This document shows, piece after piece, positions 35,335 to 44,330 of a DNA stretch of 64,000 nucleotides (positions are counted from its first letter, which is position 1; each line of letters opens with the position of its first letter). The translations under genes and the position numbers were made by a program. The DNA is from Streptomyces sp. NBC_00539 (GTDB taxonomy: Bacteria > Actinomycetota > Actinomycetes > Streptomycetales > Streptomycetaceae). The stretch covers positions 2,238,501 through 2,302,500 of the forward strand of contig NZ_CP107811.1 of the NCBI RefSeq assembly GCF_036346105.1. Direction: 5' to 3'. The notes under the pieces are model-generated. The model worked only from the letters and a program-made list of their open reading frames with translations. It searched no databases and had not been told where the DNA came from.

Positions 35335-37614
35335 TCACCGGGACGCGGTCGCGATGTCGGCGGCGGAGGGGGTGCCGGTACCGCCCCGCCGCGCCGGAAG
35401 TGTCGCACGGCCGCGGCATTCGGGCGGCTCGATGCTGAGGCGCGGCAGCCGGCGGTCCAGCCACGCGGGCAGCCACCAGTTGGCGCCGCCGAGCATGTGC
35501 ATGAGCGCGGGGACCAGCAGCGTCCGCAGGACGAAGGCGTCGAGCGCGACGGCGGACGCGAGGGCGATCCCGAACATCGCGATGAGCCGGTCGCCACTGA
35601 GGACGAACGCCAGGAAGACGGAGATCATGATGACGGCAGCCGAGTTGATCACCCGGCTGGTCTCCGCGAGTCCCACGCGTACGGCGCGGCGGTTGTCGCC
35701 GGTCTCCAGCCACTCCTCGTACATCCGGCTCACCAGGAAGACCTGGTAGTCCATGGAGAGCCCGAAGAGCACCGACACCATGATCACGGGGAGGAACGGC
35801 TCGATCGGGCCCGCCCGGCCCAGGCCGAGAAGCTCGCTGCCGTAGCCCCACTGGAAGACGCCGACGACGATGCCGAAGGAGGAGACGACGGCCGCGACGT
35901 TCATGGCGGCGGCCTTGACCGGGATCCCGACGGACCGGAAGGCCAGCAGGAGCAGTACGCAGCCCAGGGCGATGACCACTGCGACGAAGAGCGGCAGTTT
36001 TCCGATGATCACCTCGGCGAAGTCGTCGAAGGAAGCGGTCACCCCGCCGACGTGGGCCTCCATCGAACTGCCCCGGGCGGCACGCGGTATGACGTCCTGG
36101 CGCAGCCTGTCGACCAGGGCGCTGGTGGCTCGGGACTGGGGCGCGGAGTCCGGTACGACGGTCAGGACGGCGGTGTCACCGCTCCGGTTGAACACGGGCG
36201 GGGCGGCGGAGGCCACGCCCTTCGTGGTGCGCAGCGCGTCGGCGAGCCGGTCCACGGCGATCCGGTCGCCGGCGCCGTCGAGCCGGGCGACGACGGTGAG
36301 CGGCCCGTTGGTCCCGGGACCGAAGCCCGGGGCGGGCGACGCGGGCGCCGCTTCCCGCGCGGGGCTCCCGGCCAGCAGGTCGTAGGCCTTGCGGGTGGTG
36401 GAGGTCGCCGGGTCGTTGCCCTGGTCGGAGGTGCCGAGGTGCAAGGAGGCGGTGGGCAGCGCCAGCACCACCATCACGGCCGCGGCGACGAGTCCGAGCA
36501 GCTTGGGGTGCCGTTCCACGAAAGCGGACCACCGGGCGGCGAAACCGCCGGCCGCCCCGGGCCGCGGCCCCTCCAGCGCCAGCCTGCGGCGCTCGCGGCG
36601 CGAGAGGGCGCGCGGGCCGATGACCGACAGGAGGGCGGGGAGCAGCGTGAGCGACGCGGCCACGGTGAGGAGCACCGTGAGGGAGGCCGCGATCGCGACG
36701 CCGTCGAGGAAGTCGAGCCGCAGCACGAGCATGCCGAGCAGCGCGATGCAGACGGTGGCCCCGGCGAAGACCACGGCCCGGCCGGTGGTGGCGACCGCGT
36801 GCGCGGCCGCGTCCTCCACGGGCAGGCCGCGGCCGAGGCCCTTGCGGTGCCGGGTGACGATGAACAGTGCGTAGTCGATGCCGACTCCCAGGCCCACGAG
36901 CGTGCCCAGCATCGGGGCGAAGTCGGCCACGGCCATGGCGTGCCCGAGAAGGGTGGTGGCGAAGTAGGCGGTGCCCACGCCGACCAGGGCGGTGGCGATG
37001 GGCAGCAGGCTCGCTGCGAGGGAGCCGAAGGCGAGGAAGAGGACGACGGCCGCGATGCCCACGCCGACGGCCTCGGCGTAGTGGGCGCCGGGCGCCTAAG
37101 TCAGGGCGATGGCGCGGCCGCCGAGTTCCACCTGGAGCCCGTCCGTCTCCGTGGCCGGGTTCTTGGCCGCGCGGACGACGGCCTCGGCCTGGGACTTGGG
37201 TACGGAGTCGGCCTGGAGGTCGAAGGTGACGACGGCGTAGGCGGTGCGCCCGTCGGGGCTGATCTGCGCGGCCTGCCCGGGGTGGGAGCCGTAGGGGCTG
37301 CTGACCGATCCGACGCCCGGCAGGTGCGAGACCGCCTCCAGCGCCGCCGTCATCCGCCGCTCGACGGCGGGGCTGCGGGCCGTCTGGTGGCCGGGGGTCC
37401 GCCAGACGATGGTGTCGGTGTCACCGCCCTGGCCGTGGAAGCCCTCGCGCAGGAGGGCGGTGGCCCGGCCGGACTCGGTCCCGGGGACCTCGTAGTCGTC
37501 GGAGAACGCCGATCCGGCGGCTCCGGCGGCGATCGCCGTCCCGACGAGGGCGAGCAGCCAGATCAGGACGGTGGCCAGGCGGTGCCGGACGCACCACCGT
37601 GCGAGTGCTGCCAA
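35335..37614 (-). pseudogene. MMPL/RND-type membrane transporter, broken by an in-frame TAG
   Basis: Two pieces in the same frame, 37096-37614 (172 aa) and about 35335-37062 (575 aa), together match one MMPL lipid or drug exporter of about 759 residues. TAG at 37098-37096 interrupts the sequence after GGRAIALT, and eleven sense codons later the conserved membrane part resumes. Relatives have Glu there, so one G-to-T change (GAG to TAG) explains it. Everything else is intact: TMS1 and periplasmic domain, GIDYALFIVTRHR, a second periplasmic domain, and GLSMDYQVFLVSR. The second piece could start at GTG 37062 but lacks the first helix. Recent decay, a real null allele or a sequence error are the options. 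Confidence 0.85.
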
Positions 37615-39235: not shown

Positions 39236-39736
39236 ATGGAACGCATCCCACCCTCTCCGATCGCCTCCGAGCGCGAAAGCCTGCGCGCCTACCTCGACTT
39301 CCACCGCGCCACCCTCGCCATGAAGTGCGAGGGCCTGTCCGACGAGGAGCTGCGCCGCCAGGCGTCGCCGCCCTCCACGCTGTCGCTGCTGGGCCTCGTC
39401 CGGCACATGGCCGAGGTGGAGCGGCAGTGGTTCCGGCGCATCATCGGCGGCGCCGACGTACCGCACGTGTGGTCGGACCGGCACGACTTCCAGGCCGCCT
39501 ACGACGCTTCGTCCTCCACCCGCGCCGAGGCCTTCGCGGCCTGGGAGGCGGAGGTCGAGCACTCGCGCGCCGTGGAGGCCGCCGCCGACTCCCTCGACGT
39601 GCGCCGCTACGTCCCCCGGTGGGAGGCGGAGGTCTCGCTCAGGCACCTGATGCTGCACATGATCCTCGAGTACGCCCGTCACAACGGCCACGCCGACCTC
39701 ATCCGCGAGGCGGTCGACGGCACTGTCGGCGTCTGA
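39236..39736 (+). CDS. DinB-family (DUF664) protein
   Basis: Four-helix-bundle protein of 166 residues. The histidine positions expected for the DinB metal site are present: LLGLVRHMAEVERQWFRR and, near the end, MLHMILEYARHNGHADLIRE (H-x3-H). This fold includes mycothiol- or bacillithiol-dependent transferases as well as proteins without known function. ATG at 39236. It stands alone between the acetyltransferase and the iron-box operon, whose promoter overlaps its last bases. Confidence 0.88.
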   Translation: MERIPPSPIASERESLRAYLDFHRATLAMKCEGLSDEELRRQASPPSTLSLLGLVRHMAEVERQWFRRIIGGADVPHVWSDRHDFQAAYDASSSTRAEAFAAWEAEVEHSRAVEAAADSLDVRRYVPRWEAEVSLRHLMLHMILEYARHNGHADLIREAVDGTVGV

Positions 39737-39747
39737 TCCCCTGCCCC

Positions 39748-39782
39748 TATAGTGGTCCCGACATTAGGGAAGCCTTACCTAA
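39748..39782 (+). promoter_or_regulatory. Iron box (DmdR/IdeR type) with promoter
   Basis: TTAGGGAAGCCTTACCTAA (39764-39782) is close to the actinobacterial iron box TTAGGTTAGGCTAACCTAA (14 or more of 19 positions, with both outer arms nearly intact). A -10-like TATAGT lies at 39748-39753, so the box would cover the start point. DmdR1/IdeR with Fe2+ should repress the operon starting at 39808. Confidence 0.8.
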
Positions 39783-39807
39783 GCCACTACCGCGGGGGTA
39801 CCCCAGC

Positions 39808-41871
39808 ATGCGCAGCACGGACGACGCGGAGCTCTACCGCGACAGCTGGGGCGTCCCCCACCTCCGCGCCGGTGACCACCACGGCCTCGCCCGCGCCCAG
39901 GGCCGCGCCACCGCCCTGGACCGGGCCTGGCAGATCGAGGTGGAGCGGCACCGCGCCCAGGGGTCGAGCGCCGCGTTCCTCGGTCCCGGGGCCGTCGCCT
40001 GGGACCGCTTCGCGCGCCAGGCCCGGCTCGACGACACCGCGCGCCGCTGCCACGACTCCCTCGACCCGCAGACCGCCGCCTGGGTGGGGGCCTACGTCGA
40101 CGGCGTCAACGACGGCCTCGCCGAAGGAGCCGCCCGCGACGAGCGGTTCGCGCGCACCGGACACCGGCCCACCCCCTGGGAGCCGTGGGTCCCGCTCTCC
40201 CTCTGGATCGCCACCCACATCCTCTTCGCAGGCTTCGCCACCAAGCTCTGGCGCGAGCGCGTCGCCCGCGCCCTCGGTGACGACGCCGCCACCCTCTTCG
40301 CCACCGACGGCCCCGGCACGGCCGGCAGCAACGGCTGGCTGGTCCCCGGGGAGCGCACCGCCTCCGGAGCGGCGATCATCGCGGGCGACCCCCACCGGTT
40401 CATCGAGGACCCGGGGGTCTACCAGCAGATACGCCTCTCGTGCCCCGAGTACGACGTCCTCGGCCTCGCCGTCCCCGGCGTCCCCGGCCTCGCGCACTTC
40501 GGCCACACCGGCAGCGCCGCCTGGGCCATCACCAACGCCATGGCCGACTACCAGGACCTGTACGTCGAGCAGTTGCGCCCGGCCGCCGACGGCGACGGCG
40601 TCGAGGCGCTGGGCCCGCACGGCGCCTGGGAGCCCGTCCACCGGCACACCGAGACCCTCACGGTCGCCGGCGCCGACCCCGTCACCGTCGAGGTGCTCGA
40701 AACCCCGCGCGGCCCGGTGATCACGCACACCCCCGCGGCACAGCAGACGCTCTCCCTGCGCTACCCGCCCCGCGTCCGCCGCGACCTCGGCTTCGCCGCC
40801 CTCCCCGCGCTGCTGCGCGCCCGCACCGTCGCCGACATCGACCACGCCCTCGACGGCTGGGCCGAGCCCGTCAACGTGGTGCACGCCGCCGACACCGGGG
40901 GCGGGCTCCTGCACCGCGTCGCCGGAGCCGTCCCGCTCCGCGACCCGGCCAACCGGCTGCGTCCCGTGCCCGCCTGGGAGGCGCGGTACGCGTGGCAGGG
41001 CTGGGCCACGACGCCCGCCGAACCCGTCCAGGGCTTCGCCGTGATGGCGAACGCGCGCGGCATCGCCTCCCCGCTCGGCGTGGAGTTCGCGCCCCCGCAC
41101 CGCGCGAACCGCATCCGCGAGCTGCTCTCCGGCTCGGCCGACTGGTCCCCGGCGGCGATGGCCGACGTACACCGGGACACCCACCTGGCTTCGGCCGAAC
41201 CCCTGCTGGCCCTGCTGCCGGGGCTCGACGGCCTCTCCCCCGGCGCGGAGCGGCTGAGGGAGCGCCTGCTCGCCTGGGACCGGCACATGGAGGCCGGCTC
41301 CACCGACGCCACCGTCTTCGCGGCCCTGCGGACCGCGACCGTACGCCGCTTCGCCGCAGACCCCGTCTTCGTCGGCCTGGCCGACGCGCCCACCGCCCCC
41401 GAGGTGTTCCACCCCTGGCTGTACCTCGTCCCGCGCGTCGGCTACGCCCTGGAGGGGCTGCTCACCACCTCCCTGCTGCCCGGCCTGGACCGTGCCGCCC
41501 ACGTCCGCGCCGCCCTGGAGGAGACCGCGGCCGCGCACACCGCCGACACGCCCTGGTCGCAGGTGCACCGCCTCGCCCCGTGGTCGGCGCTCCCGGACCC
41601 GGACGTGCAGTGGCCCGGGCTCGGCGGCGACCACGACTGCGTGAACGCCACCAGCTCCGTCCCCGGCGTGACCGACCTCGCCGGCCGCGCGTCGGCGGCC
41701 CGCTACGTGTGGGACCTGGCCCGGCGCGAGGACAGCCTCTGGGCGGTCCCGCTGGGTGCGGACGGCGTCACCGGCTCCCCCCACCACCGCGACCAGCTCC
41801 CCCTGTGGGCGCGCTGCGCACTCGTCCCGGTCGTCACCGACTGGGCCCGACTCACCAAGGAATCCGCATGA
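39808..41871 (+). CDS. Penicillin acylase-family Ntn hydrolase, iron-regulated
   Basis: Amidase of 687 residues. The autocatalytic N-terminal nucleophile is Ser174 in TAGSNGWLVPG, which would split the chain into an alpha part (1-173) and a beta part. Downstream FIEDPGVYQQIRL, FGHTGSAAWAITNAMADYQDLY and EPVNVVHAADTGGGLLHRVAG are family blocks. No signal peptide is visible at ATG 39808 (MRSTDDAELYRDSWGVPHL), unusual because most family members are secreted. An iron box lies 25 bases upstream, and its stop overlaps the start of a siderophore-type acyltransferase. I recall a similar pair (desG/desH) linked to aryl-ferrioxamines; that link is inference here. Confidence 0.88.
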   Translation: MRSTDDAELYRDSWGVPHLRAGDHHGLARAQGRATALDRAWQIEVERHRAQGSSAAFLGPGAVAWDRFARQARLDDTARRCHDSLDPQTAAWVGAYVDGVNDGLAEGAARDERFARTGHRPTPWEPWVPLSLWIATHILFAGFATKLWRERVARALGDDAATLFATDGPGTAGSNGWLVPGERTASGAAIIAGDPHRFIEDPGVYQQIRLSCPEYDVLGLAVPGVPGLAHFGHTGSAAWAITNAMADYQDLYVEQLRPAADGDGVEALGPHGAWEPVHRHTETLTVAGADPVTVEVLETPRGPVITHTPAAQQTLSLRYPPRVRRDLGFAALPALLRARTVADIDHALDGWAEPVNVVHAADTGGGLLHRVAGAVPLRDPANRLRPVPAWEARYAWQGWATTPAEPVQGFAVMANARGIASPLGVEFAPPHRANRIRELLSGSADWSPAAMADVHRDTHLASAEPLLALLPGLDGLSPGAERLRERLLAWDRHMEAGSTDATVFAALRTATVRRFAADPVFVGLADAPTAPEVFHPWLYLVPRVGYALEGLLTTSLLPGLDRAAHVRAALEETAAAHTADTPWSQVHRLAPWSALPDPDVQWPGLGGDHDCVNATSSVPGVTDLAGRASAARYVWDLARREDSLWAVPLGADGVTGSPHHRDQLPLWARCALVPVVTDWARLTKESA

Positions 41872-42476
41872 CCGCCCCCTCCGGCGCCCCCACCACCCGG
41901 CAGCCCGTGTTCACCCGTTCCGTCGAGGGCTTCGGCACCGTCACGCTCACCCCCGTCGACCCGGCCGCCGACTCCGCCCTCATCCACAGCTGGGTCATCG
42001 AGGAGCGGGCCGCGTTCTGGGGCATGGCCGAAGCCAGCCGCGAGCTGGTCCAGGAGATATACGAGGACGTCGACCGCCGCACCACCCACCACGCGTTCCT
42101 CGTCCGGCGGGACGGGGAGCCGGTCGCACTGTTCCAGACGTACGACTGCGCCGAGGACCGGATCAGCGAGTGCTACGAGGTCGAGCCGGGCGACGTCGGC
42201 ATCCACCTGATGCTCGGCCCCGCGCACGGCGCCCCCGAGCACGGGTTCAGCGCCGCCCTGGTGGGGGTGTTCACGGCGTACCTCTTCACGGACGCGGGCG
42301 CCCGCCGCCTGGTCGGCGAGCCGGACGTGCGCAACGGCAAGGTGATGGCCTTCCTGGAACGTTCCGGTTTCGTCCTCGGGCGCGAGATCGAGCTCCCCGA
42401 GATCGACCTGCCCGAGGTGTACCTCCCGGCGAAGCGGGCCCGGCTCGCGTTCCTCGACGCCCCGGAAGGACGCTGA
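41868..42476 (+). CDS. Siderophore-type GNAT acyltransferase
   Basis: Acyl-CoA-dependent N-acyltransferase of 202 residues of the AlcB/IucB/MbtK type, which acylates hydroxylamine or amine groups of siderophore precursors. Blocks: LIHSWVIEERAAFWGM, LVRRDGEPVALFQTYD, GDVGIHLMLGPAHGAPEHGF, and ARRLVGEPDVRNGKVMAFLE. The ATG overlaps the TGA of the upstream hydrolase gene (ATGA), so translation is coupled. The pair is under one iron box. No other siderophore genes are nearby, so it likely modifies products of a cluster elsewhere, such as desferrioxamine. Confidence 0.88.
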   Translation: MTAPSGAPTTRQPVFTRSVEGFGTVTLTPVDPAADSALIHSWVIEERAAFWGMAEASRELVQEIYEDVDRRTTHHAFLVRRDGEPVALFQTYDCAEDRISECYEVEPGDVGIHLMLGPAHGAPEHGFSAALVGVFTAYLFTDAGARRLVGEPDVRNGKVMAFLERSGFVLGREIELPEIDLPEVYLPAKRARLAFLDAPEGR

Positions 42477-42517
42477 CCGCTGCCGTCGCCCTCCCGGCGG
42501 CAAACTCACCGTTCCGA

Positions 42518-42547
42518 TTGACCGTGTGATTCAGGCCACGCCAGACT
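42518..42547 (+). promoter_or_regulatory. Promoter of the Ser/Thr kinase gene
   Basis: TTGACC (42518-42523), an 18-base spacer and CAGACT (42542-42547) fit the Streptomyces HrdB-type pattern. Transcription would begin near 42554, about 28 bases before the TTG start. Confidence 0.6.
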
Positions 42548-42581
42548 GACCTCTCATCAGACCTGTTCCGCTGGGGGGAAA

Positions 42582-44330
42582 TTGACCAGCCAGAATCTGC
42601 ACATCGGACCGGATTCCGCAGCCGACCGCTACCGGCTGCTCCGGTCCATCGGGCGCGGCGGGGAGGCCGTGCTCTACCTCGCGGAGATCGAGCTCGCCGG
42701 CAGCAGCGAACCGGTGGTCGTCAAGGTGCTCGACTCCAAGACGACCATCACGCCGGACGTCTTCGACCGGATCAGCCAGAAGTGGAACGAGCAGGCCGAG
42801 CTGCTCCGCTTCGTCCACCGGCCCGGTGTCGTCGGCGTCCGGGAGCACTTCGAAGGGCCGCCGATCCACCGGCCCGGGGAGTCGGGGACCCTGACCGGGC
42901 GGGCCCTCGTCCTCGTCATGAACCACGTCGACGGGCTGGACCTGCGCGACTGGCGGGCCGAACGGACCCTCACCACCGCCGCCGAGCGGCGCGAGGTCAT
43001 GCGCACGCTGGAGCAACTGGCCGACGTACTGGACTGGCTGCACTCGGGGAAGGCGACCCCCTCCGGGCGGCAGGTCATCCACGGGGACCTCTCCCCCGGC
43101 AACGTCATGGTCGACGCCCACGGACAGGCGACCCTGGTGGACTTCGGCCTCAGCAAGCTCACCGCCGACCACCAGACGGCCGAGGTCTGGTTCACCCCGG
43201 GCTACGCGGCTCCCGAGGTCTTCGACGGCAAGCGGACTCCGGGGACGGACCGGTACGCCTTCGGGGCCATCGCCTACTTCCTCCTCAGCGGGGAGTCCCC
43301 GCCCAGCTCACCCGAGCAGCTGGCCCGGGCCGTGCAGGCGCTGCCGCAGATCGCGGTGCTGGACGCCGAGCAGCGGAGCCGGATCACCGCGATCTACGCC
43401 TACGACCCGGCCGAGCGCCCGGTGAGCCTGACCGGCTGGATGAAGGAGGTCCGGCACGCGGTGGTGTCCACGACCGGCTCCACCTCCCAGCGGGCCACGG
43501 CCGCACAGGACGCCGTCCCGCCCAGGCCGGTGGCGGCGCCGGTCGTCCCGCCCCAGCCCGCCGCACCACCCGTCGCCGCCACGCCACCCGCCGCCGCACC
43601 ACACGCCGCCACGCCACCGGCCGCGTACGCGCCCACGTACGCACTGCATTCGACTCCGCCCCCGGAGCCGGCGCGGAAGAAGAAGCGGCCCGGGCTCGTC
43701 CTGGGCTCGGTGGCCGCCGTGCTGGTCATCGCCGCGCTGGCGGTGATCGGCGTACAGCTGCTCCAGCACGACGACAAGGGGCGGGACAAGGCGACCGCCA
43801 ACAGCAAGGCGGACGGCACCGCCTCCGACGAGACCACCGCGGAGGAGACACCGTCGCCCACCCCGTCACAGAGCGAGAGCGACGGGGTCGTGGCCGACCC
43901 GACCGCCTCGGGTACCAAGCCGGCGGGTGTCGCGCCGGGCATCAAGGCCGCCGACCTGACCGTCATGACGCCCGTGGACTCGCTGGGCGACTTCACCGTC
44001 GGCGCGGCGAAGATCAACACCCAGCAGTACGGCGCGGCCTTCATCGCCGACCTGGGCTGCAACGGCGACGCGATCGCGGAGTTCGACCTCAACCGGGAGT
44101 GGAAGTCCCTGGACCTCACGGCCGGGATCGATGACGGCTCCACCCACGAGAAGGGCCGCGTCAGCATCTCGCTCGACGGGCAGCCGGCCGCCTTCTCCGA
44201 GCTCGTCGAGCTCGGCAAACCGATCACCAAGAAGGTGGACGTGAGCGGCGCCCTGCGGCTGCGTCTCAAGGTGGACGCGGGGTGCGACATGGGCAAGGTC
44301 GTCATCGCCGCCCCGCAGCTGACGCGCTGA
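42582..44330 (+). CDS. Membrane Ser/Thr protein kinase with NPCBM-like sensor domain
   Basis: Hanks-type kinase of 582 residues. The glycine loop is GRGGEAVLYLAE (24-35), the ATP lysine is Lys48 (VVVKVL), the catalytic loop is HGDLSPGNVMV (167-177; Gly replaces the Arg of HRD) and DFGLSK is at 187-192. A Pro/Ala-rich linker precedes one membrane helix (about 366-392). The external part ends in a beta-rich domain (about 445-582; GDFTVGAAKINTQQY, EFDLNREWKSLDLTAGIDDG, VDVSGALRLRLKVDAGC) resembling NPCBM carbohydrate-binding modules. TTG at 42582 is the start, with GGGGGG three bases upstream. It may sense cell wall or sugar ligands. Confidence 0.88.
   Translation: MTSQNLHIGPDSAADRYRLLRSIGRGGEAVLYLAEIELAGSSEPVVVKVLDSKTTITPDVFDRISQKWNEQAELLRFVHRPGVVGVREHFEGPPIHRPGESGTLTGRALVLVMNHVDGLDLRDWRAERTLTTAAERREVMRTLEQLADVLDWLHSGKATPSGRQVIHGDLSPGNVMVDAHGQATLVDFGLSKLTADHQTAEVWFTPGYAAPEVFDGKRTPGTDRYAFGAIAYFLLSGESPPSSPEQLARAVQALPQIAVLDAEQRSRITAIYAYDPAERPVSLTGWMKEVRHAVVSTTGSTSQRATAAQDAVPPRPVAAPVVPPQPAAPPVAATPPAAAPHAATPPAAYAPTYALHSTPPPEPARKKKRPGLVLGSVAAVLVIAALAVIGVQLLQHDDKGRDKATANSKADGTASDETTAEETPSPTPSQSESDGVVADPTASGTKPAGVAPGIKAADLTVMTPVDSLGDFTVGAAKINTQQYGAAFIADLGCNGDAIAEFDLNREWKSLDLTAGIDDGSTHEKGRVSISLDGQPAAFSELVELGKPITKKVDVSGALRLRLKVDAGCDMGKVVIAAPQLTR

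Follow-up and report, generated by a model that had tools for sequence, protein, structure and literature searches.

In Streptomyces coelicolor, the genes SCO4048–SCO4050 have been named desJ, desG, and desH and are controlled by DmdR1 (PMC12161575). Knocking out desG lowers desferrioxamine B ~1000-fold and knocking out desH lowers it 16-fold, with desferrioxamine E rising in both cases; complementation restores desferrioxamine B, and loss of desJ raises it. The authors propose that DesG strips the succinyl group from N-hydroxy-N-succinylcadaverine (HSC), and that DesH acetylates the product. No second paper on desGH was found in the open-access library searched. Here, we describe a desGH pair in Streptomyces sp. 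NBC_00539, located in a 64,000-nucleotide stretch of contig NZ_CP107811.1 (positions 2,238,501 to 2,302,500 of the forward strand) that is referred to below as the window. It is very likely that this pair swaps acyl groups for a desferrioxamine pathway whose genes lie in another part of the genome, with DesG desuccinylating HSC and DesH acetylating what remains.

Both genes are on the forward strand and were recognized from their open reading frames and Pfam matches. The first, desG (39808..41871), starts with an ATG at 39808, has a stop codon ending at 41871, and encodes a 687-aa penicillin-acylase-family (S45) N-terminal nucleophile (Ntn) hydrolase (PF01804, 503.5 bits), the proposed HSC desuccinylase. 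The second, desH (41868..42476), starts with an ATG at 41868, has a stop codon ending at 42476, and encodes a 202-aa AlcB/IucB-type acyl-CoA N-acyltransferase (PF13523, 154.8 bits). The genes overlap by 4 bases, ATGA, and the initial annotation was right to describe a translationally coupled two-gene operon that pairs an acylase with an acyltransferase. The desG/desH identity that it raised also proved right. The search rule for desGH in PMC12161575 is PF01804 plus PF13523 within 1 kb, and the window pair has both domains, in genes that overlap by 4 bases. An iron box precedes the pair, as in S. coelicolor, and is not part of the rule. The same paper cites S. atratus as carrying a fused desGH, and the S. 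atratus locus retrieved here (L080) indeed encodes a fused pair. Because the published rule picks out the window pair, S. atratus was retrieved as a fusion, and desEFABCD is present in the same genome, the identification of the pair as desGH, a copy of an iron-regulated pair already published, is well supported. NCBIfam matched DesG to PvdQ and DesH to aminoglycoside acetyltransferases only weakly, far under cut-off, and these matches were not accepted as identities.

As in S. coelicolor desJGH, a PF01804 hydrolase gene is followed by a PF13523 acyltransferase gene, an iron box is present, and desABCD is distant in the same genome. The pathway genes, in the order DesE, DesF, DesA, DesB, DesC, DesD, are on the same contig, 2.2 Mb from desGH; they were named from their translations, with DesD and DesC also identified by PF04183 and PF13523, respectively. 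How might the two loci work together? Under low iron, a DmdR1-type repressor would leave the box at 39764–39782, and desGH would be expressed together with the des cluster. DesC would succinylate N-hydroxycadaverine to form HSC. DesG, a self-cleaving Ntn-hydrolase, would then take the succinyl group off part of the HSC in the cytoplasm, and DesH would re-acylate the freed N-hydroxycadaverine with acetyl-CoA, yielding N-hydroxy-N-acetylcadaverine (HAC). Finally, DesD would join HAC and HSC into linear, acetyl-capped desferrioxamine B, besides making cyclic desferrioxamine E. We infer that DmdR1 binds the box, that DesG hydrolyzes HSC itself, that DesH is specific for acetyl groups, and that desferrioxamine B is a product of this strain. 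The initial annotation had suggested the tailoring of a siderophore made elsewhere, for example by swapping or supplying an acyl group. A des cluster for a hydroxamate siderophore 2.2 Mb away fits this suggestion, but the swap most likely occurs on the monomer before assembly rather than on the finished siderophore.

Iron box and promoter region

The putative DmdR1 operator, TTAGGGAAGCCTTACCTAA (39764..39782, no strand assigned), was found by pattern search. In the window scan, this 19-bp box has 3 mismatches to TTAGGTTAGGCTCACCTAA and is the sole match at ≤3 mismatches, with a match in 0/100 shuffles. The relatives used for comparison, here and below, are the best 80 (62–88% identity over the best segment) of at least 577 DesG relatives; at least 594 stretches with the search pattern were listed from a genome contig collection, and 577 of those listed encode DesG relatives. 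A box with ≤4 mismatches to TTAGGTTAGGCTAACCTAA is found between −300 and +60 of desG at 70 of the 80 loci, compared with 14/3455 control windows chosen at random from the same loci. The ten loci without a box are L036, L043, L049, L054, L056, L059, L071, L083, L069, and L098; the first eight have desABCD in the examined flank, and the best box at L098 has six mismatches. At L045 and L051, desA is divergent from desG, with a box in between.

The degenerate core TTAGGNNNGNCTNNCCTAA occurs with ≤1 mismatch at four places in the 7.5-Mb genome, and perfect cores occur at two places: in the desG box and just upstream of desA. However, a reversed control, counted with ≤1 mismatch and not split by mismatch number, is about equally frequent (5 and 2 vs. 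4 and 4). Hence, the genome-wide count by itself proves little, and it is not used as proof. Two one-mismatch cores are found at G000:C1:5054603-5054647, with starts 26 bases apart, distant from both des loci.

Where might transcription begin? A possible −10 element, TATAGT (39748..39753, forward strand), was read by eye; if it is a −10 box, transcription would begin at the margin of the iron box. A sigma-70 scan of 39600–42700 gave no promoter and no terminator. TATAG abuts the iron box in 13 of 14 aligned relatives, whereas the window's TATAGT is 10 bases further upstream. The near-consensus iron box seen in the initial annotation is confirmed.

Predicted chemistry of DesG and DesH

Is DesG equipped to remove a succinyl group? 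The S45 residues were placed by alignment with 4hsr and by Table 1 of PMC11241749. Ser174 (codon at 40327..40329, forward strand), aligned with the first beta-chain residue of 35sz and 4hsr, corresponds to beta-Ser1, the expected nucleophile and self-cleavage point. His196, Asn415, and Arg432 are the equivalents of beta-Gln/His23, beta-Asn241, and beta-Arg263, and all four residues are invariant (30/30). Arg197 (codon at 40396..40398, forward strand) corresponds to beta-Arg24 and would be the anchor for the carboxylate of the acyl group. This position is Arg in all 80 loci and the window (i.e., 81 DesG sequences), whereas Leu and Ile occupy it in the other two PF01804 proteins of the genome. 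According to PMC11241749, beta-24 is Phe in four entries (1FXH, the E. coli penicillin acylase; 3K3W; 7REO; and 2WYB, PvdQ); Trp in 4YF9; Val in 6NVW (Bacillus); and Leu in 1FM2 and 1KEH; it is Arg in 4HSR and the D-succinylase 7EA4. The Phe of phenylacetyl acylases such as penicillin G acylase is therefore absent from DesG, and an Arg at this position points to a dicarboxylic acyl group, not to phenylacetyl.

Among solved proteins, DesG is closest in sequence to 35sz (“penicillin acylase family protein”), then 4hsr/4hst, then the D-succinylase 7eby/7ea4. The glutaryl-7-ACA/cephalosporin acylase 4hsr/4hst, second after 35sz, has a GDPHR motif in common with DesG but, unlike DesG, is by its entry title an engineered enzyme for cephalosporin side chains. 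The D-succinylase of Cupriavidus sp. P4-10-C (7eby, 7ea4) has an S45 fold, a Ser nucleophile, His at beta-23, and Arg at beta-24, as DesG does. In a Foldseek ranking from a mediocre AlphaFold model of DesG, used for fold ranking only and not for pocket geometry, this D-succinylase is first, followed by cephalosporin acylases and the homoserine-lactone acylase MacQ, and then by penicillin G acylases; E. coli penicillin acylase is at rank 17. The best fold match is 24–25% identical to DesG, and D-succinylase is described as acting on D-amino acid compounds, unlike the proposed DesG substrate. A simple hydropathy cut-off detected no hydrophobic N-terminal stretch in 80 DesG rows (the window and 79 loci; L054, with an over-long start, was left out), whereas one PF01804 paralogue in the genome does have such a stretch. 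DesG should therefore remain in the compartment in which HSC is synthesized, the cytoplasm.

Could the pair instead add or remove aryl (phenylacetyl) caps, yielding aryl-ferrioxamines, an idea originally put forward for desG from other streptomycetes? In its favor, phenylacetyl groups are the classical substrates of penicillin acylases. Furthermore, PMC12161575 cites the older proposal as the original desG hypothesis, includes aryl caps in the range of capped products, and reports only uncapped products for strains without desGH. In some strains, DesH may therefore accept other acyl-CoAs. Nonetheless, the same paper states that S. coelicolor has no known arylated desferrioxamines, the S. coelicolor knock-outs alter the acetyl-capped product (desferrioxamine B is lost and E gained), beta-24 is Arg rather than Phe throughout, and the fold ranking places D-succinylase far above E. 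coli penicillin acylase. The aryl-ferrioxamine link raised in the initial annotation is thus improbable.

DesH resembles DesC, the enzyme that would supply HSC. The DesH and DesC of this genome are 38% identical, both have PF13523 and the motifs GDVGxH and EPDVRN, and the closest solved relative of DesH is DfoC (5o7o). In a tree of 59 rows, with at most 45 DesH rows from the loci, the window DesH is within a 16-row DesH set (100/99) and outside a group of 11 DesC rows (100/100). One row labelled DesC, L085, falls among the DesH rows; this label is most likely wrong, because L085 is a DesG-DesH fusion.

Association with the desferrioxamine pathway

The two genes keep company across relatives. 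At 75 of the 80 loci, DesH is encoded ≤400 bases downstream of DesG in the same orientation, the exceptions being L069, L076, L081, L091, and L092; L092 ends 116 bases after DesG, and L076 has an acyltransferase further downstream. Eight of the 80 loci encode in-frame DesG-DesH fusions (L038, L048, L053, L061, L063, L080, L085, and L088).

DesG also occurs together with DesD. Among 199 genomes of the genus (cut-offs E ≤1e-100 for DesG and ≤1e-150 for DesD), 112 have DesG and 155 have DesD, and all 112 genomes with DesG have DesD (Fisher p 4e-20 without correction for ancestry). In a class-level sample of 345 genomes that overlaps the genus sample (cut-off E ≤1e-120 for both proteins), DesG is found in 50, DesD in 77, and both in 46. 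Outside the genus, DesD is present in 23 of 27 genomes with DesG, and in 20 of these 23 desG and desD are ≤9 kb apart, including 9 in which they are separated by <100 bases. Inside the genus, nine class-sample genomes have both genes on one contig, at a distance of 0.5–2.2 Mb in eight and 1.6 kb in one.

These counts bear on the possibility that the pair serves another siderophore of this genome. IucA/IucC (nonribosomal peptide synthetase-independent siderophore, NIS, synthetase) matches number five in the genome and none in the window, so, as far as NIS synthetases are concerned, the initial annotation was right that siderophore assembly genes are absent nearby. One candidate elsewhere is a second siderophore-like cluster (L100, G000:C1:1968000-1986000) with two IucA/IucC synthetases, in a stretch at G000:C1:1975768-1979327, and an IucB-type acyltransferase; by eye it also has an aminotransferase gene, and it adjoins lexA-like and helicase-like genes. 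The make-up of this cluster and the 2.2 Mb between desGH and desABCD leave some room for such a role. It is very unlikely, however, given the co-occurrence of DesG with DesD, the proximity of desG to desD outside the genus, and the cluster's possession of its own acyltransferase, which forms a very long branch in the tree, very distant from DesH.

Several points weigh against a desuccinylation–acetylation role for the window pair. First, the action of DesG on HSC is a proposal and is unproven. Second, the pocket evidence is limited in several ways. The Arg at beta-24 is also found in DesG-like acylases without DesH, so it is no marker of the pair. The glutaryl acylase 1FM2 has Leu at beta-24 and an Arg elsewhere in the pocket (PMC11241749), so one residue is a weak predictor. 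The conservation of beta-24 is partly expected, because the 80 loci are only the closest relatives. Moreover, the AlphaFold model is poor, with a mean predicted local distance difference test (pLDDT) score of 67.5 and values <50 over most of the active site. Third, SCO4049 is longer than the window DesG (coding region +1/+2,347, ~781 aa vs. 687 aa; PMC12161575). Fourth, the co-occurrence counts as a whole take no account of shared ancestry, and at the cut-off used DesD is missing from 4 of the 50 class-sample genomes with DesG (G258, G316, G407, and G507). Fifth, two loci besides desD carry NIS synthetases in this genome. Sixth, the DesC group branches from within the DesH rows of the tree, so DesH is not shown to be a single clade with a single origin.

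The four genomes without DesD have no DesH and no iron box within the 19 kb examined around each DesG. The missing box is not telling alone, because of the two comparison loci with both DesG and DesH one (L109) has no iron box and the other (L110) has only a four-mismatch box. In two further genomes (G390 and G344), DesD is far off or on another contig and DesH adjoins DesG; one of these two genomes has no iron box at that place, and the other has a four-mismatch box only. The DesG-like acylases of the DesG-only loci (L105, L106, L107, and L108) are 43–49% identical to DesG and have Arg at beta-24; no DesH, DesD, or iron box was found in the 19 kb examined at each.

Genomic setting and functional implications

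The genomic place of the window pair is shared by 14 relatives (L019–L032, 74–88% identity) as far as their contigs reach. Their left flanks match the window's MMPL, cupin, GNAT, and DinB genes (names given by eye), and their right flanks match gatB and gatA, with gatB present in 13 and the contig of L025 ending before it. The DinB gene is inverted in L019, the nearest kin of the window in the DesH tree. A further relative, L035 (75%), has the DinB gene but lacks gatB in the 10 kb that follow downstream. The window's neighbors (DinB-like, kinase-like, and gatBA-like, by eye) are unlike those described for SCO4045–4047 and SCO4051–4052 in S. coelicolor. Within the window, an MMPL-like transporter gene (named by eye; 35335-37614, reverse strand) has an in-frame TAG at 37096-37098, with the frame open on either side, and ten close relatives match the downstream piece of this apparently interrupted gene at the same place.

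A second difference from S. coelicolor desJGH concerns desJ, for which there is no match in the window or in L019 (E 1e-20); the closest match in the home genome is 30% identical and 3.3 Mb from desGH. Among the 77 loci with ≥900 bases upstream, 38 have a desJ-like reductase gene divergent from desG, with the desJ matches ending 66–149 bases from the estimated desG start, and 39 have no desJ at E 1e-20. At the 38 desJ loci, the iron box can thus act as an operator for both divergent genes. The presence of a siderophore-reductase-like gene beside desG in these relatives would fit use after uptake, as would a cytoplasmic DesG, but hydrolysis of finished or foreign ferrioxamines by DesG for recycling, with DesH re-capping the products, has little chance of being correct, given that desJ was not found in the window or in 39 of the 77 relatives and that S. 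coelicolor made more desferrioxamine B after losing desJ but almost none after losing desG (PMC12161575), which fits biosynthesis.

What would acyl swapping by desGH mean for Streptomyces? Desferrioxamine B, which these bacteria make, is an iron-overload drug. In S. coelicolor, desGH tips production away from cyclic desferrioxamine E and toward linear desferrioxamine B (PMC12161575). The pair is already in print, and the published picture is unchanged by this case. Two things are added here: first, computed support for the proposed desuccinylase step, from the pocket arginine, the fold ranking, and the lack of a signal peptide; second, eight fusions among 80 loci and the closeness of desG and desD (≤9 kb) in 20 of 23 sampled genomes outside the genus that have both. 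A bolder idea, which we regard as rather unlikely, is that desGH forms a dedicated acyl-editing cycle, in which one enzyme strips the siderophore monomer and the other, sometimes fused to it, re-charges it. The cell would then set the ratio of linear to cyclic product by regulating desGH apart from desABCD, and the loss of desJ in this lineage together with a promoter re-spaced relative to the iron box would retune that ratio.

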